From: Phaeobacter sp. J2-8
Lineage (GTDB): Bacteria > Pseudomonadota > Alphaproteobacteria > Rhodobacterales > Rhodobacteraceae
DNA: 64,000 nt
Assembly: GCF_022867865.1 (NCBI RefSeq)
Contig: NZ_JALIEC010000009.1
Span: 62,001-126,000, forward strand
Reading direction: 5' to 3'
Part shown: positions 1,952 to 61,030 of the stretch, piece after piece
Layout of the letters: each line of letters starts with the position of its first letter
How positions within the stretch are numbered: position 1 is the stretch's first letter
Translations under genes and position numbers: made by a program
Notes under the pieces: generated by a model
The model's database searches: none
Told to the model about the DNA's origin: nothing
The model's input: only the letters and a program-made list of their open reading frames with translations

Positions 1952-1953
1952 GT

Positions 1954-8310: not shown

Positions 8311-9281
8311 CCAACGGTTGCCAGACATCCACGGGGGCGGCCTCGGTCGCCCCTGATTTGCCGCTGAATGCGCCAACGCCCCCCGCCGCGACGCGGTCGA
8401 TGATTGCGGGCATGGGGCTGGTGGCGCTGGCGGGGTGCATTCTGGCCAGCCAGGATGCCGCGATCAAGGAAATGACGGCGCGGCAATCCCCGATCCAGAT
8501 TTCCTTTGTGCGCTACTGCTGGCATGCGGTCTTTGTGGCGATCTTCCTTTGGGCGACCGGACGGCGGCGGATCTATCGCACGGCCCGTTTGCCGCTGCAT
8601 GTGGCGCGCGCGGTTTTGTTGCTGACGGCGTCGACCGCGATGTTTATCGCCATTGCCTTTGTCCCGCTGTCACAGGCCACGGTGATTCAGTTCCTGAGCC
8701 CCTTGGTGGTCACATTGCTGTCGGTGGTGTTCCTGGGTGAACGTATCGGATGGCGGCGGATCACCGCATTGGCGCTGGGCTTTGCCGGCGTGTTGGTGGT
8801 GATTGGTCCGCAACTGGGTGCAGAGGCTGGATTTTCCGCGATCTGGCTTTTGCCCTTACTGTCGGCCTTTGCGGCGGCGGGTTACGTGTTGATGACCCGG
8901 CGTTTGTCGGAACCGGCGGAAACCGTCCCGGCGATGGCGCTGATGCCGGTGATCTGTGTGCTGGTCCTGCTGCCCGTGCAGCCGTTTTTCTGGTCACCGA
9001 TTTCGGCGATGGATTTTGCGGTTCTGACGTTGCTTGGCTTCACCGGAACACTTGCCCATGTGGCCATCCAACTGGGGATGCAGGCCGCCCCGGCCTCGAT
9101 CCTGTCGCCGTTTCTCTACAGCCAGGTGATTTTCGCCAGCTTGCTCGGGATTGTGTTTTTTCGCGAACCGATGAGCATCGGGTTTGTCCTTGGCACATTT
9201 TTGATTGTCGGGGCCGGGCTTGCGATCTGGTGGATCGAACGCCCCCCCGCGACATCTTCAACCAGGAAAGTAGCGCAATGA
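8307..9281 (+). CDS. EamA/DMT-family membrane transporter
   Basis: The protein of up to 324 residues has about ten hydrophobic segments arranged as two EamA repeats, including the conserved SFVRYCWHAVFVAIF and ATVIQFLSPLVVTLLS regions. DMT proteins are mostly exporters or exchangers of small metabolites. The assigned start is a TTG at 8307 that overlaps the ATPase stop; an ATG at 8400 would give a shorter protein, so the start is uncertain. Its position between sugar ABC genes and a sulfatase, with a 4-base overlap to the latter, suggests it moves an intermediate or by-product of this pathway, but nothing in the sequence shows which. Confidence 0.85.
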   Translation: MTNGCQTSTGAASVAPDLPLNAPTPPAATRSMIAGMGLVALAGCILASQDAAIKEMTARQSPIQISFVRYCWHAVFVAIFLWATGRRRIYRTARLPLHVARAVLLLTASTAMFIAIAFVPLSQATVIQFLSPLVVTLLSVVFLGERIGWRRITALALGFAGVLVVIGPQLGAEAGFSAIWLLPLLSAFAAAGYVLMTRRLSEPAETVPAMALMPVICVLVLLPVQPFFWSPISAMDFAVLTLLGFTGTLAHVAIQLGMQAAPASILSPFLYSQVIFASLLGIVFFREPMSIGFVLGTFLIVGAGLAIWWIERPPATSSTRKVAQ

Positions 9282-10705
9282 CAGCCAGGAACATCATTCT
9301 GTTCATCACCGATCAATGGCGTTGGGACACGTTGAACCAGCCGGGGCATCCGTGCAAGCTGCCCAACCTCCAGGCGTTTCGCGCCGAGGCCACCAATCAC
9401 GTGAACGCCTTTACCTCGGTGCCGCTGTGCACGCCCGCGCGCGGCAGCCTGTTCACCGGCACATGGCCGCATCAAAACGGCACGATGGACAATGTGCAGG
9501 GCTCGTCGTTTTATCCACATGGCAAGCTGCACCCGAGCCACAAAACCTATATGGAGCGGTTGCAGGACGCCGGATATGCGGTGTCGTTCATCGGCAAATG
9601 GCATCTGGGCGCGGGCACATTGACCGAACGCGGCATCGACGCCCCGCTGAGCGATGGCGGCGCCGAGGCGCTGATCCCGGCCGATGATCTGGAGTTCGCC
9701 ACCCCGCGCAAGACACCGTTTTACGGCACGATCACCAAAGGCACGCATATGGACGAAAAGCGGGTCATGGCGGGGATCGAACGGCTGGAGTCGCTTGCGG
9801 CCGGCGACAAGCCATTTTGCCTGATCGTCTCGCTGCCGGGGCCGCATTTCCCGCATCACGTTCCGGCGGATTGGGTGGCGCTGTATGATGACCTGCCCGA
9901 AGATTACATGCCCGACAATTTCATCCCGCAGTTCACTGAGACCGGCAAACCCCAGGCCCAGGGCGCGCCTTACTGGCCCTGTCAGGACACCCGGGGGCTG
10001 GATCAGGCCGACTGGCGCCGCACCGCGCAGCATTATTTCGGCTTCTGTTCCTTCATCGACGATCTGTTTGGCCAGTTCCGCCGCAAGATGACCGATCTGG
10101 GGCTGGACGACAGCACCTCGCTGAGCTTCACCGCTGATCACGGCGAAATGCTGGGCGCGCATGGCTGGTTCGACAAGGGGCCGTTCTTCTACGAAGAGGT
10201 GATGCGCATCCCGATGCTGATCCGTGACGCGGGGCAGGCGGCGGCCAAGGTCGACGACGGTTTTGTCAATTTCCGCGATCTTTTCCCGACCATGGTGGCG
10301 AGCAGCGCGGGCGCCGGAATTCTGACCGAGGCAGAGACCGCACGCCGGTATGGCGCCACCCGGCAGGACCATGCGACCTATGGCTATGACGCCTATCAGG
10401 GCCGCCAGTTCAAGTTCCGCGGCATCCGCGAGGCGCGCTACAAATACGCCTGGAGCCCGCATGACATCGAAGAGCTGTACGACCTCGACACCGATCCGGG
10501 CGAACGGACCAACCGCGCCGACGACCCGACCCTGGCCGAGGAAAAAGCCCGGCTGAAAACCCGGCTGTTCGACTGGATGCGCGCCGAAAACGACGCCCTC
10601 GCCCATGGCGGTTACCAACTGCCCGTCGGCAGCTACATCGACGGCCGCCCCGCAAACGAACAACACGACCACCAACAACACCTAAACCCAGCGTTGAAAC
10701 AATGA
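9278..10705 (+). CDS. Sulfatase, Cys-type, cytoplasmic
   Basis: This 475-residue enzyme of the alkaline phosphatase superfamily starts with NIILFITDQWRWDT, whose Asp is a metal ligand. It carries the formylglycine motif C51-T-P-A-R followed by GSLFTG, and the second metal motif FTADHGEMLGAHG. After conversion of the Cys it should hydrolyse a sulfate ester. It has no signal peptide, so the substrate must be imported. The ATG overlaps the EamA stop (ATGA), and its own stop overlaps the next start, so translation is coupled through the operon. A phosphonate or phosphate monoester hydrolase of the same fold cannot be fully excluded. Confidence 0.93.
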   Translation: MTARNIILFITDQWRWDTLNQPGHPCKLPNLQAFRAEATNHVNAFTSVPLCTPARGSLFTGTWPHQNGTMDNVQGSSFYPHGKLHPSHKTYMERLQDAGYAVSFIGKWHLGAGTLTERGIDAPLSDGGAEALIPADDLEFATPRKTPFYGTITKGTHMDEKRVMAGIERLESLAAGDKPFCLIVSLPGPHFPHHVPADWVALYDDLPEDYMPDNFIPQFTETGKPQAQGAPYWPCQDTRGLDQADWRRTAQHYFGFCSFIDDLFGQFRRKMTDLGLDDSTSLSFTADHGEMLGAHGWFDKGPFFYEEVMRIPMLIRDAGQAAAKVDDGFVNFRDLFPTMVASSAGAGILTEAETARRYGATRQDHATYGYDAYQGRQFKFRGIREARYKYAWSPHDIEELYDLDTDPGERTNRADDPTLAEEKARLKTRLFDWMRAENDALAHGGYQLPVGSYIDGRPANEQHDHQQHLNPALKQ

Positions 10706-11835
10706 AAATCACTGAAATCAAAACTTATATGCAGCGGGTCGATGACCGTCCTCGCGTGCTTGTCGCCATCAAGACCGACGAAGGTATCACCGGCTGGGGC
10801 GAGACATATGCCCATGGTCCGGAACGTGCCGTTGCGCCGATCCTTGACTATTTTGCCACGCATCTTCTGGGCGAAGACCCGCGCCGGGTGACGTTTTTGC
10901 ATGAAAAACTGATGCATGTCGCACGTTTTCCGCCCGGCGCATTGGGGCTGGCGGCGTTTTCCGCGGTCGATCATGCGCTTTGGGATATTGCTGCCAAGGC
11001 GATTGGCGTGCCGGTTTACCAGATGTTGGGCGGCCATATGCGCGACAAGGTGCGGGTCTATTGCACCGCCATCGGCGCGCCGGACAATGGTGTCGAGGTT
11101 CTGTCGAATCTGCACGCGGAATTCGGCTTTACCGCCTTCAAACTTTCGCCGTATCGCAAACATCCGTTTGAGCATCGCTGGGGCGAGGTCTGCGCCGCGA
11201 CAGCTGATTATTTCCGCACCCTGCGCGAAGGCCTGCCTTCGCATTTCGAGATCGCCTTTGACGCCCATTCGGTGCTGATGGAGGGGATTGATGCGGTGCG
11301 TCTGGCGCGGGCGATCGAGCCTTATGATCCCTTCTTTCTGGAAGAGCCATTGCGCCCGGAACATATGCCGGCCTGGCGCGACATGAAGGCCAAGATGAAC
11401 ATCCCGCTGGCCACCGGCGAGGCGCTATATAATCGCCATCAATTCCTGGCGCTGCTTAATGCGGGCGGGGCGGATATCGTCCAGCCGGACATTGCCGTGG
11501 TCGGGGGGTTGACCGAAATGCGCCGCATTGCCGAGGTGGCGGATGCCCATTCCGTTCCGGTGGCGCCGCACAATCCGATGGGGCCGCTGGCCACCGCGCA
11601 TAACGTGCATTTTTCGGCCGCCTGCACCAATTTCAAGATCCTTGAGTACAAGGTGCACCGCGATGTGCCGTGGATCAAAGATCCCTATATTCCGGTTGAT
11701 GGCTATCTTGAGCTGCGCCCGGATCGCCCGGGTTGGGGTGTCGAGATCATCGAAGAGGCGTTGCAGACCGATGAATATACCCATTGGTCCCGGCCATTGA
11801 TGCGCAAACCGGACGGCGCAACCAGCTACGCCTGA
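10702..11835 (+). CDS. Enolase-superfamily dehydratase, galactonate-dehydratase-like
   Basis: This 377-residue protein has the enolase N-terminal capping domain and a barrel with the expected metal ligands D187, E214 (FFLEEPL) and E240 (ATGEAL). H189 in DAHS and H290 in APHNPMGP match the acid/base pair of D-galactonate dehydratase (GalD/DgoD), and D263 in QPDIAVVGG pairs with the latter. It would dehydrate an aldonate to a 2-keto-3-deoxy-aldonate. It is coupled to the sulfatase by a 4-base overlap and ends the operon. A kinase for the expected product, dgoK, lies 2.8 kb downstream. The exact sugar acid is not known. Confidence 0.88.
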   Translation: MKITEIKTYMQRVDDRPRVLVAIKTDEGITGWGETYAHGPERAVAPILDYFATHLLGEDPRRVTFLHEKLMHVARFPPGALGLAAFSAVDHALWDIAAKAIGVPVYQMLGGHMRDKVRVYCTAIGAPDNGVEVLSNLHAEFGFTAFKLSPYRKHPFEHRWGEVCAATADYFRTLREGLPSHFEIAFDAHSVLMEGIDAVRLARAIEPYDPFFLEEPLRPEHMPAWRDMKAKMNIPLATGEALYNRHQFLALLNAGGADIVQPDIAVVGGLTEMRRIAEVADAHSVPVAPHNPMGPLATAHNVHFSAACTNFKILEYKVHRDVPWIKDPYIPVDGYLELRPDRPGWGVEIIEEALQTDEYTHWSRPLMRKPDGATSYA

Positions 11836-11888: not shown

Positions 11889-12542
11889 TTAGCCCTGCAT
11901 CGCCTTGACCGCCGCCACTGTCGTCAGCTCGATATGGCGGGCGGTCAGCGCGCAGGTCGCGTCGATATCGCGCGCGATTGCCACCTCATAGATTGCGGCA
12001 TGTTCGGCGGGGGTATCGCGCCCGCTGGGGCCGAAATTGCGCGACAGGTGGCGATAGCGTTCGTGATGGGCATAGATCTGGTCGCGCAGATCCAAAAGCC
12101 AGTCCGAGTTGGCCGCCGAAACCAGCGCATCGTGAAACGCCCGGTTGCGCGTTTCGATTTCCTGTAGGCTGGTGTTGCGGTCTTCGGCCAGCCGCAGACT
12201 ATGATAGGCGGCGACAAGCTGCGCCTCCCAAGCGTCGTTGCCCCGGCTCAGGCTGTCGCGGATCGCTTCGTTTTCCAGCAGGATACGCACCCGGCCCAGA
12301 TCCTCGACCTCTTCGGCGGTGGCGCTGCGCACATAAAAGCCGCGGTTGGAATGTTGCACGACCGACCGCTCGCCGATCAACCGCGACAGGGCCTCGCGCA
12401 GGGGCGCGGCCCCAAAGCCAAATTCGGCGCGCAGTTCCGCGATCTTGAGCTTGCGGTCCGGCGGAAGATCGCCGGTGACGATGGCCTGCCGCAGCGTGGC
12501 ATAGGCGCTTTCGGCATCGGTGATAAAAGCGGGCTTTTCCAT
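11889..12542 (-). CDS. GntR-family transcriptional regulator (FCD subfamily)
   Basis: The 217-residue protein has an N-terminal winged helix-turn-helix (AYATLRQAIVTGDLPP, then FGFGAAPLREALSRL) and a C-terminal all-helical FCD ligand domain with the metal-binding residues of that fold (ENEAIR, FHDALVSAA, EHAAIYEAI-like and TARHIEL segments). FCD regulators usually repress sugar-acid or organic-acid genes and release DNA on binding the acid. It is convergent with the operon 4077-11835 and probably controls it, by proximity only. Its own promoter lies in 12543-12600. Confidence 0.9.
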   Translation of the reverse strand: MEKPAFITDAESAYATLRQAIVTGDLPPDRKLKIAELRAEFGFGAAPLREALSRLIGERSVVQHSNRGFYVRSATAEEVEDLGRVRILLENEAIRDSLSRGNDAWEAQLVAAYHSLRLAEDRNTSLQEIETRNRAFHDALVSAANSDWLLDLRDQIYAHHERYRHLSRNFGPSGRDTPAEHAAIYEVAIARDIDATCALTARHIELTTVAAVKAMQG

Positions 12543-12828: not shown

Positions 12829-14282
12829 TTAGCGAAAGGCCGCCATCCGGTCCCGAGTGTTGAAGTTCGACGCAACCAGCCATTCCAGCATCACGTCTTT
12901 CAATCGGGCCTTTTGCGCGCTGTGATCGGGGTCGTCCCACAGATTGCGCATTTCATCCGGGTCGGATTCCAGATCGAACAATTGACCCTCTTCACAGCCC
13001 AGAAGATGAACCAGCTTCCAGCGTTTTTCCCGCACCATGGTGATGAAATCCGCCCCGGTCATCACCATGTCGCCGGCTTGTTCACAAAACACATGTTCGC
13101 GTGGCGTGTGATCGGTTTCGGTCAAGGCCGGCAGCAGGCTCTGCGCCTCCATATCCGCCGCCGGGGTGACCCCGGCAAGTTCCAGGATCGTCGGCCCAAG
13201 ATCGAACAATTGCACCAGATCATCGACCGTGCGATCGCCCCTAAACCGTTGCGGCGCCCAGACAATCAGCGGCACCCGCGTCACCACATCATACATCGAC
13301 CATTTCTGCGACAGCCCGTGATCGCCCAGACAATCACCGTGGTCCGAGGTAAAGATCACCACCGTGTCATCCATATAATCGTTGCGTTCCAGCGCCTGCA
13401 TGATGTCACCAACGGAATTGTCGATCATTTCGACATTGGCGTAATAATAGGCGCGCATGCGGCGTTCGTCTTCGGTGCTGCGATCCGGGTTCCAGAGGAT
13501 GGAATCGTGGTCGACCTGACCATCGTGAACGCGCTTTTCCTCAAGGTAAGAGGGTTGCCCGGCGCGGTCTTCGACCGAGTCGACCGGCAGAGGGATATTG
13601 TCCTTTGCCATGTATTTTTCGGCCAGCTCGGGCGTCGGATCATAGGGCGGGTGCGGTCCGGGAAAGCCGACCTGCATGAACAGCGGCGCGGATTTGGGTT
13701 TGGTATCCAGCCAGAATTTCGCGAAATTGCCGACAAACATGTCGGAATGCAGATCCTCTGGCAAATCCCATTCAAACGCGCCAAGCCGCTGGCCGTAATC
13801 GTCGCGTTTGCGGTAATGTTCGCGCTGTTGCTTGACCAGACCATGCGCGGCCAGTGCCTTGTCCCATTCATCCAGATAGTGACGCCCCTGAAGGTAGCGA
13901 TCCTTGTTCTCGACGTTGAAACGTTCGGTGAACCCGGCCTCGGCCAGAAATGGATTGGTGTGCATTTTGCCAACATTCACACAGGTATAGCCAAATCCCG
14001 CAGGCTGCTGACCCATGTTTTTGACCAATCTTGTTCATTCTCCATCACGCCGGTCACATGCGGATAATACCCGGTGAACAGGCTTGCCCGGCTGGGCACG
14101 CAGCTGGGGGCGGTGATGTGGCATTGGGAAAACGAAACGCCCTCTTTGGCAAGCCGATCAAGGTTCGGCGTGTCCATATGGGCGTGACCATGGGCGCGAA
14201 TGGTATCAAAGCGCTGTTGGTCGGTGATGATCAAAAGAATGTTCGGTTGTTTTGGTGCCGTCGAATTGGGTGCTTTGGTCAT
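12829..14282 (-). pseudogene. Sulfatase, Cys-type, cytoplasmic, frameshifted
   Basis: The gene starts at the ATG at 14282 and encodes PNILLIITDQQRFDT, then the formylglycine motif C61-V-P-S-R followed by ASLFTG. Near 13990-13992 one base is missing: the first frame gives TWVSSLRDL and the second resumes GYTCVNVGKMH. Adding one G (read on the minus strand) rejoins them into a protein of about 484 residues. The second part holds FTSDHGDCLGDHG and a normal C-terminus. There is no signal peptide. It diverges from dgoK across a region with two operator-like repeats, so it belongs with the galactonate-type module. Catalytic residues are all kept, so this is either a sequencing error or a very recent lesion. 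Confidence 0.87.
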
Positions 14283-14500
14283 GTGGCGGCCTGACGTTGG
14301 TATGAAAAGTTGCGCCCAAGGATAATTGGCAGGACCAAAATGTCAATGTTTCGTAACTGGTTTTTGTTGTGGTCTGGTGTTTTTCTGTATTGGCCCAACC
14401 AGCCAGCGAAGGGGCGATGACCAGTTAAGATGCTGAAACTGCGCGGTAAGTGGGTGGGTCATGGCTTGATCTGGCCGAGTTTGGCGATTTGCCCAATGAT

Positions 14501-14549
14501 TTGGATGGACCAATATTGGGAATTGGGCTAGATTTGGATCAACCAATAT
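14501..14549. promoter_or_regulatory. Two direct repeats, putative GntR operators (sulfatase/dgoK control region)
   Basis: TTGGATGGACCAATAT (14501-14516) and TTGGATCAACCAATAT (14534-14549) are near-identical, each preceded by GAT, and lie 33 bp apart, about three helical turns. Each contains the inverted repeat TTGG-N5-CCAA. Two further copies lie before the tctC gene (16243 and 16332). They sit in the 314-bp gap between the divergent sulfatase and dgoK genes; the rest of this gap has no gene. Confidence 0.6.
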
Positions 14550-14596
14550 GGATGGGGCCCCTTGACCGAAACCCCGCCGGGCATTGGAGGATTCTG

Positions 14597-15538
14597 ATGA
14601 CGCATTCTGACCTCGCGCCCTGGCCGCTTGCGGTTTTTGACTGGGGGACATCCAATCTTCGCGCCTATGCGGTGCAGGAAGATGGAACCATTTTGGGCCG
14701 GGTCGCCGGGCGCGGCGCCAAACAGACCGAGCGCGAGGAATTTTCCCGAGCCTATGATCGCACCTTGATGCGGTTGCGTCGGAAATATGGCTGTGAACAG
14801 GCGCTGCTTGTCGGCATGGTGGGCAGCAATCTGGGTTGGGTGGATGTCGACATGTGCACGGCCCCGCAAACGCGCGCCACGGTACAGGCGCGGCTTGTGC
14901 CGGTGGCCGGAACCGGGGCGCATATCGTGCCCGGCGTCAGTGCGAAATCCATCGGTGGCTTTCCCGACATGATGCGCGGCGAAGAGGTTCAGGTTTTTGG
15001 CGCCTTGGCACTGGCGGCCCGCGACGACGCGCTTTTGTGTTTGCCGGGCACCCATAGCAAATGGGTCACCTGCGAACAGGGGGCGATTTGCCGGATTTCC
15101 ACCGCGATGACCGGAGAGATCTTTGACCTTCTGTGCCATGCCAGTGTGCTGAAAGGGCATGTGACCAGCGAATTGGGCGGAACCGGCCTTGCGGGGTTTG
15201 ACGACGGGATCGAGGCGGCGAAATCCAATCTCGGTGTCTCTCTGTTGGCGTTTTCCACGCGACCGCGCGCCTTGCTTTCGGGGGCGGTCAATCCGGTTGA
15301 TGGGCGCGGCTATCTGTCGGGGGTGTTGATCGGATCAGAGATCCTGTCCATGCAGCAGGCCAGCGGCGCGCAGGACGTGCTGATCGTCGGAGAGCCAGAG
15401 CTGGCGCGATTTTACGCGCGGGCGGCGGGCGCGTTGAACATGACGGCCCGGGTGATTGACGGCGCGGCTGCCATTGCCGCCGGTGCGGCGGCGATCCATC
15501 GCGCGCGGCTTGCGGCGGTCTCCGGGGTCAATAGCTGA
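14597..15538 (+). CDS. dgoK: 2-dehydro-3-deoxygalactonokinase
   Basis: This 313-residue protein starts with the sugar-kinase phosphate motif VFDWGTSNLRAY and contains LVGMVGSNLGW, GGFPDMMRGEE, CLPGTHSKWV and GGTGLAGFDDG, all hallmarks of DgoK. It phosphorylates 2-keto-3-deoxy-galactonate at C6 with ATP in the cytoplasm. GGAGG lies seven bases before the ATG. Its substrate is the expected product of the galactonate-dehydratase-like enzyme at 10702. No KDPGal aldolase gene is in the window, so the last step must be encoded elsewhere. The 3' end overlaps the convergent GntR gene by 11 bases. Confidence 0.93.
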   Translation: MTHSDLAPWPLAVFDWGTSNLRAYAVQEDGTILGRVAGRGAKQTEREEFSRAYDRTLMRLRRKYGCEQALLVGMVGSNLGWVDVDMCTAPQTRATVQARLVPVAGTGAHIVPGVSAKSIGGFPDMMRGEEVQVFGALALAARDDALLCLPGTHSKWVTCEQGAICRISTAMTGEIFDLLCHASVLKGHVTSELGGTGLAGFDDGIEAAKSNLGVSLLAFSTRPRALLSGAVNPVDGRGYLSGVLIGSEILSMQQASGAQDVLIVGEPELARFYARAAGALNMTARVIDGAAAIAAGAAAIHRARLAAVSGVNS

Positions 15539-16242: not shown

Positions 16243-16347
16243 TTGGCTGGACCAGTATCCAGCCGAGAATTTAGGTTAGACCAAAATCCGCCCCTATTTC
16301 GTTTTGGACTAGACAAAAACCATACCAATTGATATTGGTTGGTCCAA
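16243..16347. promoter_or_regulatory. Putative GntR operators upstream of tctC
   Basis: TTGGCTGGACCAGTAT (16243-16258) and, on the minus strand, TTGGACCAACCAATAT (16347 to 16332) match the two sites before dgoK; together they give TTGGMYSRACCARTAT. Two weaker variants lie between them (around 16274 and 16303). The cluster fills the gap between the divergent GntR and tctC genes. Confidence 0.6.
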
Positions 16348-16392
16348 TTACTGGTACACAAGCCAGGTGAATTATCATCAAGGGAGGACTTC

Positions 16393-17379
16393 ATGACATT
16401 CATTCAAGCCATGGTGCGCGGGATTGGCGCGGCATCCATTGCAGCAACGCTCGGGACGGCGACGCTTTTCGCCAGCGCGACCACCGCAGTGGCGGAATTT
16501 CCATCAAAGCCCATTCAGGTCTATGTCGGGTATCGCCCCGGTGGGCGCACCGACACGGTGGCGCGCAAGATCTCTACTCATATCAATGAAAACAACCTGT
16601 TGCCGCAGCCCTTGGTGATCGTGAACGTGCCCGGCGCGGCGTCGGCGAATGCCGCGCGCGAGGTTCTTGCAGCTGCGCCTGATGGCCATACCATCATGAT
16701 GTGGTCGCACAGCATTCTGGTGTCCAATGCGCTTGGGGTGAATGAAATCCACCCCAGTGACTTTACCTCGCTGGGCTTTACCGGCGGCGGCAGCCCGGTT
16801 TGGACGGTGCGCGATGATGCGCCCTATCAATCCCTGGAAGAGCTGATCGAGGCGCTGCGCGCCGAACCCAAAAGCCTGACCGAAGCGGTTGGCATCGGCA
16901 CCGTGCCGCATATCGTCGGCCTGATGCTGGCGGGTGAAGCCGGGTTTGAAACTCGTCTGATCGGTGCCCCGGGTGGGGCCGACCGTTTGGCGCGTCTGCT
17001 GGGCGGCAATGCCGATATCGCGCTGTTTTCGGGGTCTGAATACCTGAACTATCAACCCAACGGCATTCGCGCGCTGACCTATTTCGGGGCCAGCCGTCTG
17101 CCTGCGATTGGCGATGTGCCCACCGCCAAAGAGCTGGGATATGACGTGGTTTGGGCCAATCCGCTGTATTGGCTGGCGCCTGCCGGTCTGGATGCCGACG
17201 CCGAAGAAATGATCACCACCGCATTGCAAACCGCCGTTGAAAGCGATGAAATGCAGGCATGGTTCACCGAAAACACGCTTGAACCCTATTGGACGGATGG
17301 TGCTGCGGCGCTTGAAAGCTCGATCGAAGTGCTGGGTCAACTGGATGCTGTGGCAGAGAAGGCCGGGCTTAAGAACTAA
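16393..17379 (+). CDS. tctC: Tripartite tricarboxylate transporter binding protein (TctC/Bug family)
   Basis: The 328-residue protein has a Sec signal peptide ending near residue 34 (TTAVAEF) and then FPSKPIQVYVGYRPGG, the typical start of mature Bug proteins. NVPGAASANAAREVLAAAPDGHT and the LGYDVVWANP segment also fit. These proteins bind carboxylates such as citrate and aromatic or sugar acids in the periplasm. GGGAGGA precedes the ATG; an upstream in-frame start at 16339 would extend into the operator region and is rejected. It heads an operon with tctB, tctA and a sulfatase, which suggests a sulfated carboxylate ligand. Confidence 0.92.
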   Translation: MTFIQAMVRGIGAASIAATLGTATLFASATTAVAEFPSKPIQVYVGYRPGGRTDTVARKISTHINENNLLPQPLVIVNVPGAASANAAREVLAAAPDGHTIMMWSHSILVSNALGVNEIHPSDFTSLGFTGGGSPVWTVRDDAPYQSLEELIEALRAEPKSLTEAVGIGTVPHIVGLMLAGEAGFETRLIGAPGGADRLARLLGGNADIALFSGSEYLNYQPNGIRALTYFGASRLPAIGDVPTAKELGYDVVWANPLYWLAPAGLDADAEEMITTALQTAVESDEMQAWFTENTLEPYWTDGAAALESSIEVLGQLDAVAEKAGLKN

Positions 17380-50878: not shown

Positions 50879-52141
50879 ATGGGCAAGCGACCTAACATTA
50901 TCCTTTTGTTCAGCGATCAGCAACGCGCAGACACTCTGCCCTGCTACGGAAATACCTTCGTCGAAGCCCCCTATCTGGATACCATGGCCAAATCCGGCAC
51001 GGTGTTCAGCGATTGCCGCACCGTTTTCCCGGTTTGCACACCTGCGCGGACGTCGATGTGGACAGGGCTCTATCCCCATGCCCATACCGTGATCCGCAAT
51101 GCCTATGGCATCGACGATCTGTTGTCGGATCGTGGCCTGCTGGATCAAAGCGTGTTCACCCTGCTGCAAAACGGCGGCTATGAATGTGCCTATTACGGCA
51201 AATGGCATCTTGGGGTGCGCAATCCCGGCCCGTTTGACGTGTTCGAGGCCTTTAACTCCTGGGGCGGTCACTGGGTCGACAGCAAACAGAACGTGCAAGG
51301 CGGGACATGGGTGCCGGATCGCGACACCGATGCGATGATTGACTGGTTCCGTACCCGTGATCGCAGCAAACCCTTTGCCAGTGTCATTTCCTGGTATCCG
51401 CCGCATGATCCGTTTTCCTCGCCGCTTGATACGATGGACAAATACCGCCGGATGAAGGTGCCGTTCCCGGGCTATTATGGGTCTGTCACGGCGTTGGATC
51501 GCTGCGTTGGCCGGATCTTTGCTGCGTTGGAAGAAAGCGGCGAAGCGGACAACACCATTGTCATCTATTATTCCGACCATGGAGAGCATTTCCACCTGCG
51601 CGATGGCACCACCAGCAAATTCATGTGTACCGAGGAAAGCGTGCATGTGCCGTTCCTGATTTCGGGGCCGGGCGTGCCAGAGGGCCAGGTCTGTGATGCC
51701 TTTATCGGCATGCAGGATCTTATGCCGACAATGCTCGACTATGCCGAAATAGAGGCCCCGGCGCATCTGCATGGGCGCAGCATCCGGGGATTGCTGGAGG
51801 GCACCACAACCGATTGGCGCGACAGCTATTATATCGAGAATGAGACATTCGATATTCTGTCTTCCAGCAAGGGCGGGTTGAAACCCCGGTTGGAGGAACG
51901 CGGATTGTGCAGCCGCACGCACAAGCTGATCCTGAGTGAGAGGGCAGAAAACCCGCGTCTGTTCGATCTGCGCAGCGATCCCGAGGAAAGGGTCAATCTC
52001 TTGGTTCCGGGTGCCCGCCCACCCCAGGAATTCGACGGTTTGCTGGACCAGATCCAGGCCCAGGCCGAAGAATTGGATGACGCCAAGGGGATCGAGATCA
52101 TCGCCGCCAACAAGGCTGTGCTGGTGCCGGAATTCGCCTGA
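50879..52141 (+). CDS. Sulfatase, Cys-type, cytoplasmic
   Basis: The 420-residue enzyme starts NIILLFSDQQRADTLPCYG, has the formylglycine motif C53-T-P-A-R followed by TSMWTGLYP, and YYSDHGEHFHLRDG for the remaining metal ligands. GGAGACTGAC precedes the ATG. It is shorter than the other sulfatases here but has the normal core. Shared segments (for example the HLRDG and KYRD regions and the C-terminal layout) suggest it is a tandem paralogue of the catalytically dead neighbour upstream. Confidence 0.92.
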   Translation: MGKRPNIILLFSDQQRADTLPCYGNTFVEAPYLDTMAKSGTVFSDCRTVFPVCTPARTSMWTGLYPHAHTVIRNAYGIDDLLSDRGLLDQSVFTLLQNGGYECAYYGKWHLGVRNPGPFDVFEAFNSWGGHWVDSKQNVQGGTWVPDRDTDAMIDWFRTRDRSKPFASVISWYPPHDPFSSPLDTMDKYRRMKVPFPGYYGSVTALDRCVGRIFAALEESGEADNTIVIYYSDHGEHFHLRDGTTSKFMCTEESVHVPFLISGPGVPEGQVCDAFIGMQDLMPTMLDYAEIEAPAHLHGRSIRGLLEGTTTDWRDSYYIENETFDILSSSKGGLKPRLEERGLCSRTHKLILSERAENPRLFDLRSDPEERVNLLVPGARPPQEFDGLLDQIQAQAEELDDAKGIEIIAANKAVLVPEFA

Positions 52142-52167: not shown

Positions 52168-53595
52168 ATGCAGCCTGCAAATACCATTGTCATCATGGCG
52201 GATGAATTCCGGCGCGATGCCATGGGGTGTGCCGGACATCCGATTGTTCAAACGCCCCATCTTGATGCATTGGCGGCGCGGGGCACGCGGTTTACCGCCG
52301 CCTATACGCCCAGCCCGATCTGTGTGCCCGCCCGCGCGGCTTTTGCCACCGGGCGGCAGGTGCATGAGATCGGCACATGGTGCAACGCGCATCCCTATTC
52401 CGGCAATATCGAAAGCTGGCACCACAGAGTGCGCGCCGCAGGCCACCACGTGCGATCCATCGGCAAATTGCATTTTCGCGGCGGGCCGGAGGATGACCCC
52501 GGCTTTTCCGCGTCCGATATTCCGATGAATGTGGTGGGCGGCGTTGGCGATGCGCTTGGGCTTGTAAGGGATGAGATCATTCCGCGCGGCGCAACGGACA
52601 AGCTGGCCGCGATGGCGGGCCCGGGCGAGTCCGATTATACCGCCTATGATCGCGATATCCTGACACATTGTCGGCAATGGCTGGACCAAGAGGCCCAGAA
52701 GCAGGACCGCCCCTGGGTGCTGTTCGTGTCGTTTGTCTGTCCGCATTATCCGCTGACGGCGCCGCAGGAGTTCTATGATCTTTATGATCGGCCGGACCTT
52801 CCGATGCCCAAACTCTATGCTGAACAGGACCGGCCCCACCATCCGTTCCTGTCCGATTTCGCGGGTTGCGTCGATTATGATGCGCATTTCAAATCCGAGG
52901 CCGACGTCCGTCGCGCCATCGCCGGATACTATGGGCTGTGCAGCTTTATCGATTTACAGGTCGGCGCGATTGTCGAGGCGGTCGAAAACGCCGGTCTGAC
53001 CGAAACCACCCGCGTCGCATTCACCAGCGACCACGGAGAGAGCCTTGGCGCGCGGGGGATGTGGGGCAAGAGCAATATGTACGAAGAAAGCGCCGGCATC
53101 CCGTTGATCGTTGCCGGCCCTTCGGTGCCCGAAGCCACGGTCGAGGACGCGCCAAGATCCCTGATTGATCTTTCCCGCTTTGTGCTGACCTCTGCCGGGT
53201 TACCCGGCGACGGGTTCGGCACAATGGATCTTTTCTCGGATGAACAGGAACCTGTGATCTCTGAATACCACGCAACCGGGTCGTTAAGCGGGGCCTGGAT
53301 GGTGCGGCACAAGAACTGGAAATATGTCCATTACGCACTTTATGCGCCGCAGCTGTTCGACCTTGGGGCTGATCCAGAAGAATTGACAGACCTTGCGTCT
53401 GACCCCGCCTATGCCGAGGTTTTGAATATCTGTCGCGGGCTTCTGGAGGCGCGGCTTGACCCGCAGGCCGTGCATGACCGGGCCCTTGCAGATCAAGGCA
53501 AGCGGCTGGCAGAGCTTGGCGGGCGGGATGCCGTCGTCAAACGCGGTGATTTCGGCTTTTCGCCGCCGCCGGGGGTCGATCCGGCCTTTAGCTAG
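52168..53595 (+). CDS. Sulfatase, Cys-type, cytoplasmic
   Basis: This 475-residue enzyme begins NTIVIMADEFRRDAMGCAGHP, has the formylglycine motif C52-V-P-A-R followed by AAFATGRQVH, FTSDHGESLGARGMWGK and FDLGADPEELTDLA. CGGAGAGACGCC precedes the ATG, 26 bases after the previous sulfatase. DEFRRDAMGCAGHP resembles the start of choline-sulfatase-like and related alphaproteobacterial sulfatases, but no betaine genes are nearby. It ends the plus-strand operon of module F. Confidence 0.92.
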   Translation: MQPANTIVIMADEFRRDAMGCAGHPIVQTPHLDALAARGTRFTAAYTPSPICVPARAAFATGRQVHEIGTWCNAHPYSGNIESWHHRVRAAGHHVRSIGKLHFRGGPEDDPGFSASDIPMNVVGGVGDALGLVRDEIIPRGATDKLAAMAGPGESDYTAYDRDILTHCRQWLDQEAQKQDRPWVLFVSFVCPHYPLTAPQEFYDLYDRPDLPMPKLYAEQDRPHHPFLSDFAGCVDYDAHFKSEADVRRAIAGYYGLCSFIDLQVGAIVEAVENAGLTETTRVAFTSDHGESLGARGMWGKSNMYEESAGIPLIVAGPSVPEATVEDAPRSLIDLSRFVLTSAGLPGDGFGTMDLFSDEQEPVISEYHATGSLSGAWMVRHKNWKYVHYALYAPQLFDLGADPEELTDLASDPAYAEVLNICRGLLEARLDPQAVHDRALADQGKRLAELGGRDAVVKRGDFGFSPPPGVDPAFS

Positions 53596-53652: not shown

Positions 53653-55287
53653 TCACGTCGCACCCGCATCATGGCGGTGCCCTTGCAGCAGTTTCCGGGT
53701 GTAGTCGGTTGTTGGCGCGTTGAGCAAAGCATCGCGCTGGCCAATTTCCTGAAGGCGGCCCATCTGCAAAACCGCCACCCGATGCGAGACTTTGCCGATC
53801 ACCGCCAAATCATGGGAAATGAACAGGCAGGTCAGGCCGCGTTCCTTTTGAATACGCAACAACAGATCCAGCACCCGCGCCTGAATGGTGACATCCAGCG
53901 CCGAGGTCACCTCGTCACAGATCAACAGCTCTGGTTCCGCCGCCAAGGCCCGGCACATGGCAATGCGTTGTTGCTGGCCACCCGAAAGCTGCCGGGCGCT
54001 CCGGTTCAAAATGTCCGGCTCAAGCTCGACTTCCTTCAGCAATGCAATTGAATCTGCACGCGCCTCTGCCGCGCTGCGCCCAAAGTAAAGCTGCCGGGGG
54101 CGGGCCAGGATTTCATTGACCTTCTGCGCAGGATTGAGCGAGGACAGCGGATCCTGAAACACCATCTGCACACGTCGGCGCATATCCTTGGACCGGTTGG
54201 CCGCCTTGCCTGCCAGCGGCTGTCCGTCAAATGTAATTCGACCGGAATGCCCGGAAACGATCCCCGCGACCAACCCGGCAAGGGTGGATTTCCCCGACCC
54301 GCTTTCGCCGACAATGCCCAGGGTTTCACCGGCGTTGATGTCCAGGGTGATGTCCTGCAATGCGGGGGGGCCGTCCGGGCCGCGCCGGAACAGACCGCCG
54401 GGGCGATGATAGGAAAAACTGACCGAGGTCGTCGCAAATCCGGCAGAGGCCAGCGCGGTGTGGGCAGGCCTTGACCCCGGCTTTGGCCCCTGCGGTTCGA
54501 TGCGTGGAATTGCGCGGATCAATTCCTGTGTATAGGCGGTGGCAGGGCGGGAATACACGCGGCTCAGCAGGCCTTGTTCCAGTATCTTGCCGTCTTTCAT
54601 CACCGCAATCTTGCGGCACATCGCCCTGATCACGTTCAGATCGTGGCTGACATAGACGAGCGTCGCATTCAGCTCTTTCTGAAGCTCGGCAACAAGTTGC
54701 AGCACCTCTGCCTCGACCGTTTTGTCCAGCGCGGTTGTCGGTTCGTCCAGAACAATCAATTCGGGGCGGCCGATCAAGGCGGCGGCAATGACAACGCGCT
54801 GGCGCTGGCCGCCGGAAATCTCATGCGGATACCGCGCCAGCAGTTTGTCCGGCTCTGGCAGGCCGGTGCGATCCATCAGCCATAGGATGCGTTTTTTGGC
54901 GGCGCTGTCGCGCAGGTCCGTGTGCAGGCGCACCAGCTCTGCCAGCTGGCGCCCAATCGGCATATGTGGCGTCAAAGAGGACAGCGGATTTTGCGGCACC
55001 ATCGCGGCCCGCCCGCCGCGAAACGCCCGCAACCCCGCAGGGTCAAGCCGCAGCACATCCGTATCACCCAGCCGCACCGTTCCCTTTGCAAACCGCGCGC
55101 CGGGGCGGGCATAGCCCAACAGCGACCGCGCCAGGGTGGATTTCCCCGACCCGCTTTCGCCAACAATGCCAAGCGTTTCACCGCGCAGAACCTGCAAACC
55201 GGCATCACGTACCGCGTGAACCTCGGTCCCGAGATCCGTGCTATAGGTCACGTCGAGGCCGGAAATGTGGATATGGGGCGTCATCAT
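53653..55287 (-). CDS. Oligopeptide-type ABC transporter ATPase, DppD-DppF fusion
   Basis: The 544-residue protein holds two complete ABC domains in one chain. The first has [32 protein letters not shown] and VLDEPTTALDKT; the second has GIVGESGSGKSTLAGL, LSGGQQQRIAMCRAL and ICDEVTSALDVT. Fused ATPases of this kind are known in GsiA and YejF. The start at 55287 overlaps the permease stop (ATGA); a longer frame upstream is out of place. It powers the permeases at 55284-57150. Confidence 0.92.
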   Translation of the reverse strand: MMTPHIHISGLDVTYSTDLGTEVHAVRDAGLQVLRGETLGIVGESGSGKSTLARSLLGYARPGARFAKGTVRLGDTDVLRLDPAGLRAFRGGRAAMVPQNPLSSLTPHMPIGRQLAELVRLHTDLRDSAAKKRILWLMDRTGLPEPDKLLARYPHEISGGQRQRVVIAAALIGRPELIVLDEPTTALDKTVEAEVLQLVAELQKELNATLVYVSHDLNVIRAMCRKIAVMKDGKILEQGLLSRVYSRPATAYTQELIRAIPRIEPQGPKPGSRPAHTALASAGFATTSVSFSYHRPGGLFRRGPDGPPALQDITLDINAGETLGIVGESGSGKSTLAGLVAGIVSGHSGRITFDGQPLAGKAANRSKDMRRRVQMVFQDPLSSLNPAQKVNEILARPRQLYFGRSAAEARADSIALLKEVELEPDILNRSARQLSGGQQQRIAMCRALAAEPELLICDEVTSALDVTIQARVLDLLLRIQKERGLTCLFISHDLAVIGKVSHRVAVLQMGRLQEIGQRDALLNAPTTDYTRKLLQGHRHDAGAT

Positions 55288-56183
55288 GGGTTTGTGTCCG
55301 TTTCGCTGACACCGTATGCGCGGGCAAGCCCGTCCACGGCGAAGTTGATACCGATCACCAGCGACGACAGCCCGATGGCCGGCGCGATAAGGAACCAGGG
55401 ATCGGTAAAGATCACGGTCATCGCCTCTTGCACCATCAGGCCCCAATCGGGTGTGGGTTGGCTGATCCCGAGGCCAAGAAAGGACAGCGCCGAAATCTTC
55501 AGCACCGCAGAGGAACATCGGATCGCCAGCTCGACCGCCAGCAATCCGGTCAGATTGGGGGCCAATTCCCGGAACAGAATGCGCGGCAGGCTTTCACCGC
55601 GCAATTCGGCGGCCCGTATGAAATCCTGCGCCGCCAGACCAACGGTGCGGGCGCGGATCACCCGCACGACGCCGGGCGTATAGACAATGGCCACAACAAT
55701 CGAAAGCGACCAGATTTCCTTGCCAAAGGTCAGGACCAGCACCGCGATCAGCAACAGTTCCGGCACCGCCATGACCGCATCGGTCAGACGCATGACCAGA
55801 TCATCCAGCCACCCGCCGCGATACCCGGCAAAAAGCCCCAGCACCGCGCCGGTGACGACGGCGGCGAAGACGCCCAGCAAGGACACCAAAAGCGCGATCC
55901 GCCCGCCCGACATCAGCCGCGAAAGATAGTCACGCCCGATCTGATCCGTGCCCAGCCAATGGGCACCCGATGGCGGCGTCAACCCGGTCGTCAGAATGGC
56001 GGACACGGAATAGGGCGCGATCACCGGCGCAAAAAGCGCAAGAAGCAGGTGAAACGACACCAGCACCAGACCGATCACCGTCATCGGCGATCGCAGCGCC
56101 CGGCGCAGCGGCAGCGGCAGGCGGCGCGCCTTGGCCGGCGGTGCGGCGGGGGGGCGAAATTGGGCGAAAGTGTCACTTGTCAT
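55284..56183 (-). CDS. Oligopeptide-type ABC transporter permease (DppC/OppC)
   Basis: The 299-residue membrane protein has an N-terminal anchor (MTVIGLVLVSFHLLLALFAP), the DppC segment HWLGTDQIGRDYLSRL and the EAA loop around RAAELRGESLPRILFRELAP. It overlaps the DppB-type gene by 11 bases and the ATPase by four. It forms the second channel subunit of the module G transporter. Confidence 0.92.
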   Translation of the reverse strand: MTSDTFAQFRPPAAPPAKARRLPLPLRRALRSPMTVIGLVLVSFHLLLALFAPVIAPYSVSAILTTGLTPPSGAHWLGTDQIGRDYLSRLMSGGRIALLVSLLGVFAAVVTGAVLGLFAGYRGGWLDDLVMRLTDAVMAVPELLLIAVLVLTFGKEIWSLSIVVAIVYTPGVVRVIRARTVGLAAQDFIRAAELRGESLPRILFRELAPNLTGLLAVELAIRCSSAVLKISALSFLGLGISQPTPDWGLMVQEAMTVIFTDPWFLIAPAIGLSSLVIGINFAVDGLARAYGVSETDTNP

Positions 56184-57150
56184 GTGTCATTCTCCGGGCG
56201 CGAGGGTCAAGCGCAAGCACCGCAATATCGGCCAGCAGGTTGCCGGCAATGACCGCAAAGGCCGCCAGAAAGGTGATGGCCTGAACGGTCGGGACTTCGC
56301 GTTGGGAAATGGCGCGGATCAGTTCAAGCCCGATGCCGGGAAACTTGAAGACCGCTTCGATCACGACCACGCCCGACACGATCCCGGCCACGAATTGTGC
56401 GGTGCCGTTCAGCATGGGAACCAGCGCCACCGGCAGCGCATGGACCAGAACCAAGCGCCATTCCGGCACGCCGGACAGGCGGGCACGCTCGATAAATTCG
56501 CTTCGCAGGGTTTCCTGCATCCCGGCGCGCAGCAACCGGAATTGATATGCCACGCCGGACACGATCAGCGCCATCACCGGCAAGACCGAGACCGACAGGA
56601 TTTGCCAGGCCGGGGCGGTTTCCGGGATCAACAAAATTGCAGGCGCCAGGCCAAGCTGAAGCGCAAATACGATGATGAATATATTGGCAACAACGAAATC
56701 GGGCATCGAGTAGGAAAACAATGTGACGCCGGAAATGATGCCGTCGCGCCGTCCTCCGGGTTTCAACGCCGCCACGGCCCCCAATGCGATGGCAACCAGC
56801 GGGGTGACAATCACGGCAATCGACGCCATGAGCAGCGAATTGATGATCGGATGCCAGATATAGCCGATCACGGGTTCGCGGGTCAGGATCGTCGTGCCGA
56901 AATCAAAAGTCACCAGATTGACAAACATTTCCCCGAACCGGACCAGCGGCGGGCGATCCAGCCCAAGCTCTGCGCGCATTCGGTCGAAATCTTCGTCGGT
57001 ATAATAGATGCGTTCATCCTGGGGGATTGTGGCCTCCAGCGCATCACCGGGCAGGACTTCGGTTCCAATGAACACGATGCCCGCAACCAAAAGCAAAATG
57101 ACGCCGGACAGTGCCAAACGGCGCAAGACCATCGAAAAAATCGGGTTCAT
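56173..57150 (-). CDS. Oligopeptide-type ABC transporter permease (DppB/OppB)
   Basis: The 325-residue protein has the DppB layout: first helix ALSGVILLLVAGIVFIGTEV, PGDALEATIPQDE in the first loop, TFDFGTTILTREPVIGYI and an EAA-like loop RSEFIERARLSGVPEWRLV. It is separated from its binding-protein gene by 60 bases that contain a hairpin. Confidence 0.92.
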   Translation of the reverse strand: MNPIFSMVLRRLALSGVILLLVAGIVFIGTEVLPGDALEATIPQDERIYYTDEDFDRMRAELGLDRPPLVRFGEMFVNLVTFDFGTTILTREPVIGYIWHPIINSLLMASIAVIVTPLVAIALGAVAALKPGGRRDGIISGVTLFSYSMPDFVVANIFIIVFALQLGLAPAILLIPETAPAWQILSVSVLPVMALIVSGVAYQFRLLRAGMQETLRSEFIERARLSGVPEWRLVLVHALPVALVPMLNGTAQFVAGIVSGVVVIEAVFKFPGIGLELIRAISQREVPTVQAITFLAAFAVIAGNLLADIAVLALDPRARRMTHDK

Positions 57151-57170
57151 CAGCCAAACTCACCTTTTGG

Positions 57171-57204
57171 TGCCCCCGCCACGGATCAAACCGCGGCGGG
57201 GGCA
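57171..57204 (-). promoter_or_regulatory. Hairpin between binding-protein and permease genes
   Basis: TGCCCCCGCC (57171-57180) pairs perfectly with GGCGGGGGCA (57195-57204). No T run follows on the minus strand. It is the sixth such structure directly after a binding-protein gene in this window. Confidence 0.65.
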
Positions 57205-57210
57205 ATGTCG

Positions 57211-58807
57211 TTAAGAAGATTTGCTGTCGATCCAGATGTATTCAAAGCGGCTGGACCAGTTCTGGCTGTGGCTGCGCGCGTTCATCACATTGGGGGCATG
57301 GGCCACCATGTTGCGGCGACCACCCAGCATGATGCCCGGCACTTCTTCCTGAAGGATCCGCTGGGCGTCCTGGTACATCTTCAACCGTTCCTGTTCATCC
57401 TGAACACCAACCGCTGTATTGACCAGACGGGAATATTCGTCGGCCCCCGGGCCGGTCCAATCGGTGTTTTCCTCGCGGGTGTAATCCGCGCGGCTGAGGT
57501 TGATGAACGGGTTGCGCGGGCCGACGAGATTGCGGTGCGGACGGCCATAAGGCGCGTTCACGGCGTCGACATAGGGGCTGAAACCGTCACAGGGGCGTTC
57601 TTCGAAAACGATCTCGATGCCGACTTCGGCCAGGCTTTCCGCCACGATGGGATAGATCCGCGGCTCTTCCGGGAAGTTCGGGCAAAAGGCGATGGCGGGC
57701 AATTTCACGCCGTCGCTGTAACCGGCCTCTGCCAGCAGCGCGCGGGCCTGTGCCACATCGCGTTCGACCGGGCGGGCCACAAATTCTGCGTTGACCCCGG
57801 ACATGTGAGAAGTCATTGCCGGTCCAGCCGCTGGCATCGCCATAGACGATTTCGTTGATCTTGGTGCGGTCAATCGCCAGCGACATCGCTTTGCGGACGT
57901 TTTGATCGTTCCATGGGAAATCAAGGTTTTTCGGCAGGTTGAGATAGAACTGGTCACCGGCTGCGGAGCGGTGAATTTGCGCGCCGGCATCTTCGAACTG
58001 TTCGATCTGGCCGGGGTCGATGTTCCAGACTGCATTCAACTGGCCCGCACGAAAGCCATTGATTGCCGCATTGGCATGGGTGATCACGCCCTGCAATTCG
58101 TCCAGAAACGGACCTTGCTCGCCCCAGTAGTTTTCGTTGCGCACGGCGCGGAACTGGCGGGCATTGTCGATTTCAACCAGTTTGAACGGCCCGGTGCCGA
58201 TCCCGTCATACCCAATCTGATCGACGTCGGCATTGGCCTTCATGATGACGGCGCGATATTCGGCCAGCGCATAAGGGAATTCGGCGTTGGGTTGCACAAG
58301 ATGGAACCGTACGGCGTATTTGCCCAGCTTTTCGGTCTTGGCCACATTGGCGCGCAGCAATCCAACACCACCGCCCATATGCAGGTTCATCGAGGCAACA
58401 ACGTCATCTGCCGTCATCTCGGTGCCATCATGGAACATGACACCTTCGCGCAGGGTCGCGTCCCAGGTATCCATCTTGTCATTGGCCACCAGCGACGCGG
58501 CAAGTTCCAGCTGGACGTTGAAAACTTCGTCGACCCAGGTCAGCGCGTTCCAGACCGAACGGGTCAGCAGATCAAGCCAGTAATAGGGATGCGTGCCGCG
58601 GTTGGACTGGCCAAGCGCCCAGTTGGGATAGGTCTGGCCATAGACAAGCTTGCCACCGGTTTGCGGCGTTTGATTTGCCAGAATTTTGCTGATGGCGTCA
58701 GGCGTGTCAGCAAAAGCCTTGGATGGATCGAGCAAGTGCGACAGGCCAATGACCGTGGCCCCGGCAGAAACCTGGGCAAGAAAGCGGCGGCGGGATACCG
58801 AATGCAT
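57211..58807 (-). pseudogene. Family-5 solute-binding protein with Tat signal, frameshifted
   Basis: The ATG at 58807 has GGAG seven bases upstream and encodes a twin-arginine signal, SVSRRRFLAQVSAGA, with a likely cleavage near SKAFAD. SBP family-5 features follow (RTHPYYWLDLLTRSVW-like, LREGVMFHDGTEMTADDVV, GIGTGPFKLVEID). Around 57809-57812 one extra base breaks the frame; skipping it gives GWTGND then SHMSGVNAEF, and the rest is intact to IWIDSKSS at 57211. The whole has about 531 residues. It is the first gene of the minus-strand operon and diverges from the UTRA regulator. Confidence 0.87.
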
Positions 58808-58910
58808 TTTGAAACTCCATGTTCGAATGCGGGAATACTGCCGCCTGAGTGCAGCCCGCTTATGAAGCTTCGGTAACAACGAAACTGTTGCGCCACCGCT
58901 TTCACAAAAG

Positions 58911-60724: not shown

Positions 60725-60833
60725 GCTGAGGGGGGCGGGCCGTCCACTGATGGCGTGCGGCCCTGCCTTTGCCTGAGGGTCCGGCATCGGCCCGCGGTCT
60801 GCATCGCAATCCATGCCTGTTTGGAATTCTTTC

Positions 60834-61030
60834 GGACAACAGGGTGCCTCGCCTTGGGGGCATCCGGTTGTCAAAACGCCCAATCTGGATGCTCTGGCGC
60901 GCGGGGCACGGTGTTTTCCAACGCCTATTGCACCAGCCCGATCTGCATGCCGTCGCGCGCGGCTTTTGCCACCGGGCAATATCCGCATCAGACCGGCTAT
61001 TATTGCAATGCGACGCCCCGGAAATATTGC
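60834..61030 (+). pseudogene. Sulfatase remnant (5' fragment, frameshifted)
   Basis: Two frames together reproduce the N-terminal part of a sulfatase: HPVVKTPNLDALARG (60871 on) and then, after a missing G near 60910, GTVFSNAYCTSPI followed by the formylglycine motif C-M-P-S-R and AAFATGQYPHQTGYY. The start codon, the metal-binding Asp motif and everything after about residue 95 are missing. It most resembles the sulfatase at 52168. The rest of the gap 60725-61163 has no recognisable gene. Confidence 0.8.

Follow-up and report, generated by a model that had tools for sequence, protein, structure and literature searches.

Removal of sulfate is often pictured as an outer step that precedes the uptake of algal sugars. 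The carrageenan locus ZGAL_3145-3159 of Zobellia galactanivorans is described, in the part of its report available to us, as comprising dauA-D, a GH127 gene, S1-family sulfatases and a DMT symporter (PMC5698469). For the sulfatase PsS1_NC, the available text reports a crystal with the 2-sulfated anhydrogalactose end of iota-carrageenan in the active site (PMC6923384). We analyzed a stretch of 64,000 nucleotides from Phaeobacter sp. J2-8 (contig C17, NZ_JALIEC010000009.1, positions 62001-126000; hereafter the window), which carries nine sulfatase-fold loci, S1 to S9. The genome comprises 17 contigs (C numbers) and 4.80 Mb. A preliminary description of this DNA had proposed that intact sulfated sugars or sugar acids are imported and then desulfated inside the cell. 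The sequence evidence presented here supports that proposal, and we estimate the probability that the region consists of catabolic cassettes for import followed by desulfation at roughly 0.7. This support comes from the lack of signal peptides, the presence of genes for formylglycine-generating enzyme (FGE), a retained K-x-H loop and conserved groups of sulfatase and importer genes. The nine loci are as follows.

S1, 9278..10705, + strand: sulfatase without signal peptide, CTPAR; best PDB relative PsS1_NC (exo-2S-iota-carrageenan sulfatase).
S2, 12829..14282, - strand: sulfatase in two frames; 13977-14282 has CVPSR, 12829-14028 the rest.
S3, 19450..20943, + strand: sulfatase without signal peptide, CTPSR; its start is the final base of TctA.
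S4, 21916..23472, + strand: sulfatase without signal peptide, CQPAR; a 99.8% identical segment lies on C14.
S5, 41547..42926, - strand: sulfatase without signal peptide, CMPSR.
S6, 49612..50832, + strand: catalytically dead, conserved sulfatase; AAPAM.
S7, 50879..52141, + strand: intact sulfatase, CTPAR; begins 46 bp past S6.
S8, 52168..53595, + strand: intact sulfatase, CVPAR; choline-sulfatase-like, under the equivalog cut-off.
S9, 60858..61018 (piece about 60.83-61.03 kb), + strand: remnant of an S8-like sulfatase start; PF00884 28.5 bits.

A profile search matched PF00884 at all nine loci, in agreement with the earlier count, the S9 remnant with 28.5 bits. Seven genes had been said to keep C-x-P-x-R; six intact genes do so in frame (S1, S3, S4, S5, S7 and S8), and the open reading frame at 12829 lacks the motif. 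S6 had been called catalytically dead and 60834 a remnant, and both assignments stood: the motif position of S6 reads AAPAM, and S9 holds 121 bp with 81% DNA identity to the start of S8 (52234-52354). Genome-wide, 36 PF00884 matches reduced to 28 loci when split matches, among them those at either end of C3, were merged and a remnant and a match under the cut-off were left out. The three other genomes of the same genus gave 3, 9 and 34 matches against these 36; thus sulfatase abundance varies.

Family searches covered 394 genomes from a larger group, with only the best three or four candidates per genome scored. S7 homologues at E <= 1e-60 were found in five of the 394 including the Phaeobacter genome itself, and further ones in Pseudoruegeria sp. 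SK021, a Rhodoferax metagenome-assembled genome (MAG) and G003. Each of the seven S7 loci outside our genome holds, within 17-20 kb, Opp1-type genes for OppA, OppB, OppC and OppD/F together with one or more additional sulfatases and an enolase-superfamily (MR_MLE) gene, although no second close relative of OppA1 exists on the four sulfatase replicons of our own genome (the next match scores 87 bits). In the window, S7 has the Opp1 genes, S6 and S8 as its neighbours. Plasmid pMaD5 of Marinovum algicola DG 898 carries the S7-type set plus a DHDPS/NAL-type aldolase gene, and a stretch of G003, a genome grouped in the same genus as ours, is 98.4% identical to pMaD5 over 20,086 columns. S3 was likewise found in five of the 394 genomes including our own (E <= 1e-110). 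Genome G363 has the gene order of the window, with identities of 73% (DgoK), 89% (TctC), 84% (TctB), 96% (TctA) and 80% (S3), and G221 and G326 hold relatives of TctA (32-33%), S3 (42-43%) and S2 (48-49%) together.

S1 was found at E <= 1e-80 in three of the 394 genomes, namely ours, G222 and G228. The latter two keep S1 and S4 with an orthologous CUT1 importer (62-87% identity), SDR, MalK, GntR, aldehyde dehydrogenase (ALDH) and MR_MLE genes, together with a DgoK match at 34-35% identity. In G222, S4-S1-ALDH-MR_MLE-DgoK-DgoA run on one strand and the CUT1 importer is divergent; the DgoA product scored above the cut-off of NF006600 (277 bits), and G222 also has a lactonase-type gene. The G228 cassette includes an FGE gene. 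The best plasmid relative of S5 (52%, Martelella pMM170) comes after CUT1, MalK, Gfo/Idh/MocA and ThuA genes and is followed by two further sulfatases. On a Roseibium plasmid, a 65% relative of S4 has an Opp-type importer on one side and TctCBA on the other; more distant relatives, at 41-44%, stand next to Tct genes on two plasmids of Rhodobacterales, where an FGE gene is adjacent in one case and at a distance of about 6.5 kb in the other. Conserved sulfatase-importer gene groups across genera are strong evidence for the predicted coupling of these sulfatases to import.

Physical closeness carries less weight. The preliminary description had placed each locus beside a different transporter, which was overstated: S6, S7 and S8 all come after a single Opp operon, and in two relatives one CUT1 cassette contains both S1 and S4, so these do not have separate transporters. 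To assess closeness, 17 binding proteins and permeases of the window served as probes for importers; the four complete replicons that carry sulfatases (26 of the 28 loci) were covered, and the counts were compared with 2000 rotations of whole replicons. An importer lay within 1 kb of 7 loci (expected 6.4; 952 rotations reached the observed count), within 2 kb of 12 (expected 8.6; 343 rotations) and within 5 kb of 21 (expected 12.6; 6 rotations). The near-chance result at 1-2 kb makes the adjacency argument weak at short range. A first control (22 of 28 loci versus 24 of 340 positions within 5 kb) was dropped because C1, C10 and C11 supplied 17 of its 20 stretches and the two that bore importers lay on C12; the rotation that replaced it is far less favourable. 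Importer closeness is modest evidence, and conserved gene order is the real support.

These data bear on the alternative that the sulfatases scavenge sulfate from assorted small esters, such as choline sulfate and aryl sulfates, the importers being neighbours only by replicon density. About half of random positions on these replicons do lie within 5 kb of an importer. Furthermore, the best relatives of S8 are choline sulfatases (best PDB match 6fny, 202 bits; 271 bits against the equivalog TIGR03417, below its cut-off of 433), and the nearest solved relatives of S3, at about 155-162 bits, are 4upi (SpAS1 of Silicibacter pomeroyi), 4uph and 4upl (which we take to be SpAS2), all three presumably promiscuous enzymes. 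The groups around S1+S4, S3, S5 and S7 are, however, conserved in other genera and accompanied by sugar-acid enzymes, and we consider scavenging a distinctly less probable explanation.

Signal peptides were judged by a heuristic (start-to-domain distance and Kyte-Doolittle hydrophobicity over ten residues), not by SignalP, at 30 places in the genome, of which 25 include the domain start and five are C-terminal pieces. By this heuristic no signal peptide was present in any of the 25 start regions, the nearest start codon lying 1-30 residues ahead of the domain in all 25 and 1-10 residues ahead in 24. Longer versions (up to the six nearest starts per gene) had no hydrophobic stretch above 0.82, with the single exception of an S1 extension that scored 2.34 and runs through the overlapping EamA gene. 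As positive controls, five of six binding proteins scored 1.8-2.0, a clear hydrophobic start, and one of uncertain start scored 0.17; five enzymes used as comparison scored 0.5-1.4 on the same scale. The starts of S2 and S6 were read directly, and the earlier statement that the loci lack signal peptides held on this heuristic.

FGE was not matched among the window proteins scanned, as had been noted before, and the genome-wide search for maturation enzymes proposed at that time found two FGE genes above the cut-off (C3:811-1641 and C11:215379-216200), contrary to the absence of any such enzyme that would have refuted the proposal. In a sample of relatives, 25 of 41 genomes had PF03781 (FGE) matches. 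Genome G008 has nine PF00884 matches and zero PF03781 matches.

It is very unlikely that the loci encode not sulfatases but members of the superfamily that hydrolyze phosphonate or phosphate esters. S3 does match 4uph (162 bits) and RlPMH (2vqr, 141 bits), but the K-x-H position reads G-Y-T in these two proteins (Y-T-T in 2vqr, Y-T-D in 4uph), K-L-H in S3 and K-T-H in the sulfatases 4upi and 4upl. All six intact sulfatases of the window retain K-x-H, as does the larger piece of S2, and the Y-x-T signature of phosphonate monoester hydrolases was found in none of them, which speaks against the placement with that class raised in the preliminary description. Elsewhere in the genome, two sulfatase-fold proteins on C12 (L021 and L022) have C-M-P-A-R without K-x-H and so possibly belong to another ester class. 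One C14 sulfatase has R instead of K in K-x-H, and the sulfatase-fold gene at C10:233051-234280 (L006) has an unusual C-M-C-N-R in place of C-x-P-x-R.

Between OppA1 and S7 stands the catalytically dead S6, with gaps of 71 bp and 46 bp, respectively. Orthologues occupy the same place in Pseudoruegeria SK021 (64% identity), G003 (44-46%) and M. algicola pMaD5 (44%); the last two being near-identical, S6 occurs in three separate lineages. An S6 copy was not found in the stretches fetched for five other S7 loci. The motif site reads AAPAM, AGPAG or PGPSR, and every copy has lost the nucleophile cysteine, the K-x-H loop, P-P-H, D-H-G and the later lysine; the first metal-binding Asp survives in the window S6 alone, and only the G003 and pMaD5 copies retain the motif Arg. 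Sixty-four positions are invariant in the S6 copies and common to S7, and an AlphaFold model (pLDDT 74, five-sequence alignment) matches sulfatases, 5g2v first. Between pMaD5 and G003, S6 has 16 synonymous and 4 non-synonymous differences (omega 0.09) and S7 has 13 and 3 (omega 0.07); the corresponding counts are 16/1 for OppA, 7/1 for OppB and 9/0 for LysR. Between species, omega was 0.14-0.42 for S6 versus 0.12-0.23 for S7, with dS near saturation. A pseudogene decaying by chance would explain the loss of nearly every catalytic position and the faster evolution of S6 than of S7 between species, but it is the least credible of the alternatives given a frame open in four records, always between OppA and the live S7, and a surplus of synonymous differences with P about 8e-7 under neutrality without transition bias. 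From this excess and the conserved place it follows that S6 is a selected protein, a non-catalytic sulfatase kept by purifying selection.

The simplest role for S6, and the most likely one, would be that of a partner subunit of S7. We tentatively suggest that S6 might be the founder of a class of 'pro-sulfatases', dead S1-family paralogues that act as obligatory partners of a live cytosolic sulfatase in an importer-coupled operon. Such a protein could conceivably contribute structure, help in substrate recognition or exert regulation, on the model of the AdoMetDC prozyme. In the available part of its description, the trypanosome AdoMetDC prozyme is a dead paralogue paired with a live enzyme and so a model for S6-S7 (PMC6221367), although the enzyme is unrelated and the S6-S7 association putative. 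By title or the start of the abstract, none of the papers found in the literature searched described a conserved dead sulfatase pair. The SulfAtlas paper, as far as available, mentions nine possibly inactive sequences, and inactivity appears there only as odd sequences.

In the proposed mechanism, binding proteins with CUT1, Tct or Opp-type importers would carry small sulfated sugars or sugar acids into the cytosol. There the S1-family sulfatases without signal peptide would take off the sulfate after maturation by FGE, whose genes lie outside the window; the genes for this are present. The sugar would then be oxidized; enolase-superfamily enzymes would dehydrate it, DgoK would phosphorylate it and 2-keto-3-deoxy-6-phosphogalactonate (KDPGal) aldolase would cleave it, steps for which the genes are likewise present and the fluxes are presumed. 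Desulfation would in this way feed 2-keto-3-deoxy-sugar-acid pathways. The KDPGal aldolase gene lies on another contig. Gene kinds of the dau type (ALDH, MR_MLE, DgoK and DgoA) are grouped with the sulfatases in G222 and are present but scattered in our genome. The neighbouring genes in the window are listed below.

422..1893, + strand: aldehyde dehydrogenase in two frames (422-1084, 556-1893); PF00171 halves 7-186 and 182-460 of 461; candidate sugar-aldehyde dehydrogenase.
1954..3912, - strand: GH127-type glycosidase, no evident signal peptide; PF07944 297 bits, best PDB match 5mqo 477 bits.
4077..8310, + strand: CUT1 sugar ABC importer 1, with binding protein, two permeases and MalK-type ATPase; PF01547, PF00528 twice, PF00005.
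8307..9281, + strand: EamA/DMT transporter directly 5' of S1; PF00892.
10702..11835, + strand: enolase-superfamily (MR_MLE) enzyme, galactonate-dehydratase-like; PF13378; PDB 4jn7 478 bits; NF010624 270 bits, below its cut-off of 311.
11889..12542, - strand: GntR/FCD regulator (Pfam scan).
14450..15538, + strand: 2-keto-3-deoxy-galactonokinase (DgoK); PF05035 244 bits; no NCBIfam family.
16339..19450, + strand: tripartite tricarboxylate transporter TctC-TctB-TctA; PF03401, PF07331, PF01970.
20965..21762, - strand: GntR/FCD regulator, duplicated along with S4 (Pfam scan, DNA comparison).
24349..29284, + strand: CUT1 importer 2 with SDR (27438-28193) and MalK-type ATPase; orthologues beside S1+S4 in G222 and G228.
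30418..31653, - strand: D-mannonate dehydratase ManD; NF043051 677 bits, cut-off 550.
32560..35787, - strand: CUT1 importer 3; its binding-protein frame (34915-35787) covers part of the profile only.
39184..41505, + strand: MalK-type ATPase and Gfo/Idh/MocA oxidoreductase; like genes precede the S5 relative on Martelella pMM170.
43025..49540: Opp1 cassette, with OppF, OppD, OppC and OppB (- strand), LysR 46839-47822 (- strand) and OppA1 47978-49540 (+ strand).
53653..58879, - strand: Opp2 importer; its binding-protein frame (57587-58879) covers part of the profile only.
62307-63583: MR_MLE gene in two frames, the nearest MR_MLE to S7.

For the S1+S4 cassette (cassette A), we see about an even chance that it serves units of red-algal galactans; sulfated anhydrogalactose or galactose would then be the most likely substrates. 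Its gene content suggests a pathway resembling anhydrogalactose catabolism. In a search of PDB sequences, S1 matched PsS1_NC (6pt4) at 220 bits and the next protein at 122 bits. The two have in common the motif Y-[AG]-Y-[DE]-x-Y-x-G-x-x-F-x-x-R-x-I-R, which among 30 frames of our own genome is found only in S1 and its C14 copy. A reading of S4 as a second carrageenan sulfatase by homology was rejected, the matches to 6pt4 (163 bits) and 4uph (152 bits) being unspecific. For the S2+S3 cassette (cassette B), Tct together with DgoK suggests a sulfated acid that would be carried by Tct. A frame at 15456-16274, considered as an aldolase between DgoK and Tct, was discarded: it had no Pfam match and looks antisense to another gene in both genomes. 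For the S6-S7-S8/Opp1 cassette (cassette D), all that can be said is that the substrate may be a sulfated oligosaccharide or an acid-sugar conjugate. The GH127 gene was also considered as proof of carrageenan use; its best solved match, 5mqo, is one that we take to be BT1003. Since BT1003 is described, in the available part of the source, as an aceric-acid hydrolase (PMC5698469), GH127 was taken as compatible with carrageenan use and no longer as evidence for it. A SusC/SusD pair was absent among the window proteins scanned, the rest of the genome not having been searched.

Several observations weigh against the catabolic interpretation or its red-algal part. There is no clear excess of importers within 1-2 kb of sulfatases on these importer-rich replicons. 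S1 is a distant relative of PsS1_NC, which, according to the available text, was never shown active as a pure protein (PMC6923384), and G222 has their common motif with a one-residue difference, while a search of G228 did not find it. The S3 relative in G244 lies near CUT1-type genes, with no Tct match, and the DgoK relative of G222 was assigned no NCBIfam family. GH127 was not found in the 20 kb around S1, in G222 or in G228. No carrageenase was identified in a search limited to GH16, which gave one match, a short protein; a scavenger lifestyle is only a guess, since carrageenase families beyond GH16 were not searched. The MR_MLE gene nearest to S7 in the window is about 10 kb off and split. 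Within the 64 kb, ALDH (422-1893), S2 (12829-14282) and MR_MLE (62307-63583) are each split over two frames in the assembly, and two binding-protein frames are incomplete. At five frame breaks inspected, base runs were at most five, with no long homopolymers; the breaks may reflect decay or assembly error.

Sulfatase genes appear to have been copied among importer loci within the genome. The segment 9240-10744 (S1) has a copy on C14 at 99.5% DNA identity, in which S1 is split over two frames, and 20955-23511 (GntR and S4) has one at 99.8%; the C14 copies lie about 10 kb apart, near different importer genes. Contig C3 holds one FGE gene plus sulfatases; a single sulfatase frame of 539 codons runs through its joined ends, which makes it probably a closed plasmid of 106,394 bp. 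Contig C17 opens (positions 1-20000) with a cobalamin biosynthesis cluster similar to Paracoccus and Gemmobacter plasmids.

By title or the start of the abstract, the literature searched described no cytosolic or importer-coupled desulfation, and for Marinovum with sulfatase gave nothing related. If the import-then-desulfate interpretation is true, 28 sulfatase loci in which no export signal was detected, with recurring importer cassettes, would move desulfation inside the cell. The importer cassettes recur in other Alphaproteobacteria and in one betaproteobacterial MAG, and competition for sulfated small sugars released by others would be suggested. Many CUT1, Opp and Tct binding proteins that lack an assignment could then be tested directly for their ligands, and the conserved dead S6 offers a clean test case for pseudoenzymes among sulfatases.

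Among known enzymes, SpAS1 (4upi, Silicibacter/Ruegeria pomeroyi) and 4upl are Roseobacter-group S1-family sulfatases near S3 with the same K-x-H, the match to S3 being about 155-162 bits only. Choline sulfatase BetC (6fny), a cytosolic S1-family enzyme, is the nearest solved relative of S8; S8 differs from it in scoring 271 against a cut-off of 433 and in its Opp/sugar-acid context. PsS1_NC (6pt4) is the best solved relative of S1, with a shared motif, but a signal peptide is predicted for it and was left out of the cloned residues 34-507 (according to the available text; PMC6923384), whereas S1 starts at the domain. Unlike the Zobellia locus, the window has sulfatases without signal peptide, its importers are ABC and Tct systems with binding proteins, and its genes are spread over several cassettes with the aldolase on another contig. 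As far as the Zobellia locus is described in the part available, the likeness in kinds of enzyme extends to S1-family sulfatases, GH127, ALDH, an enolase-superfamily-type dehydratase/cycloisomerase, 2-keto-3-deoxygalactonate (KDGal) kinase, KDPGal aldolase and a DMT transporter, which in the window stands ahead of S1.

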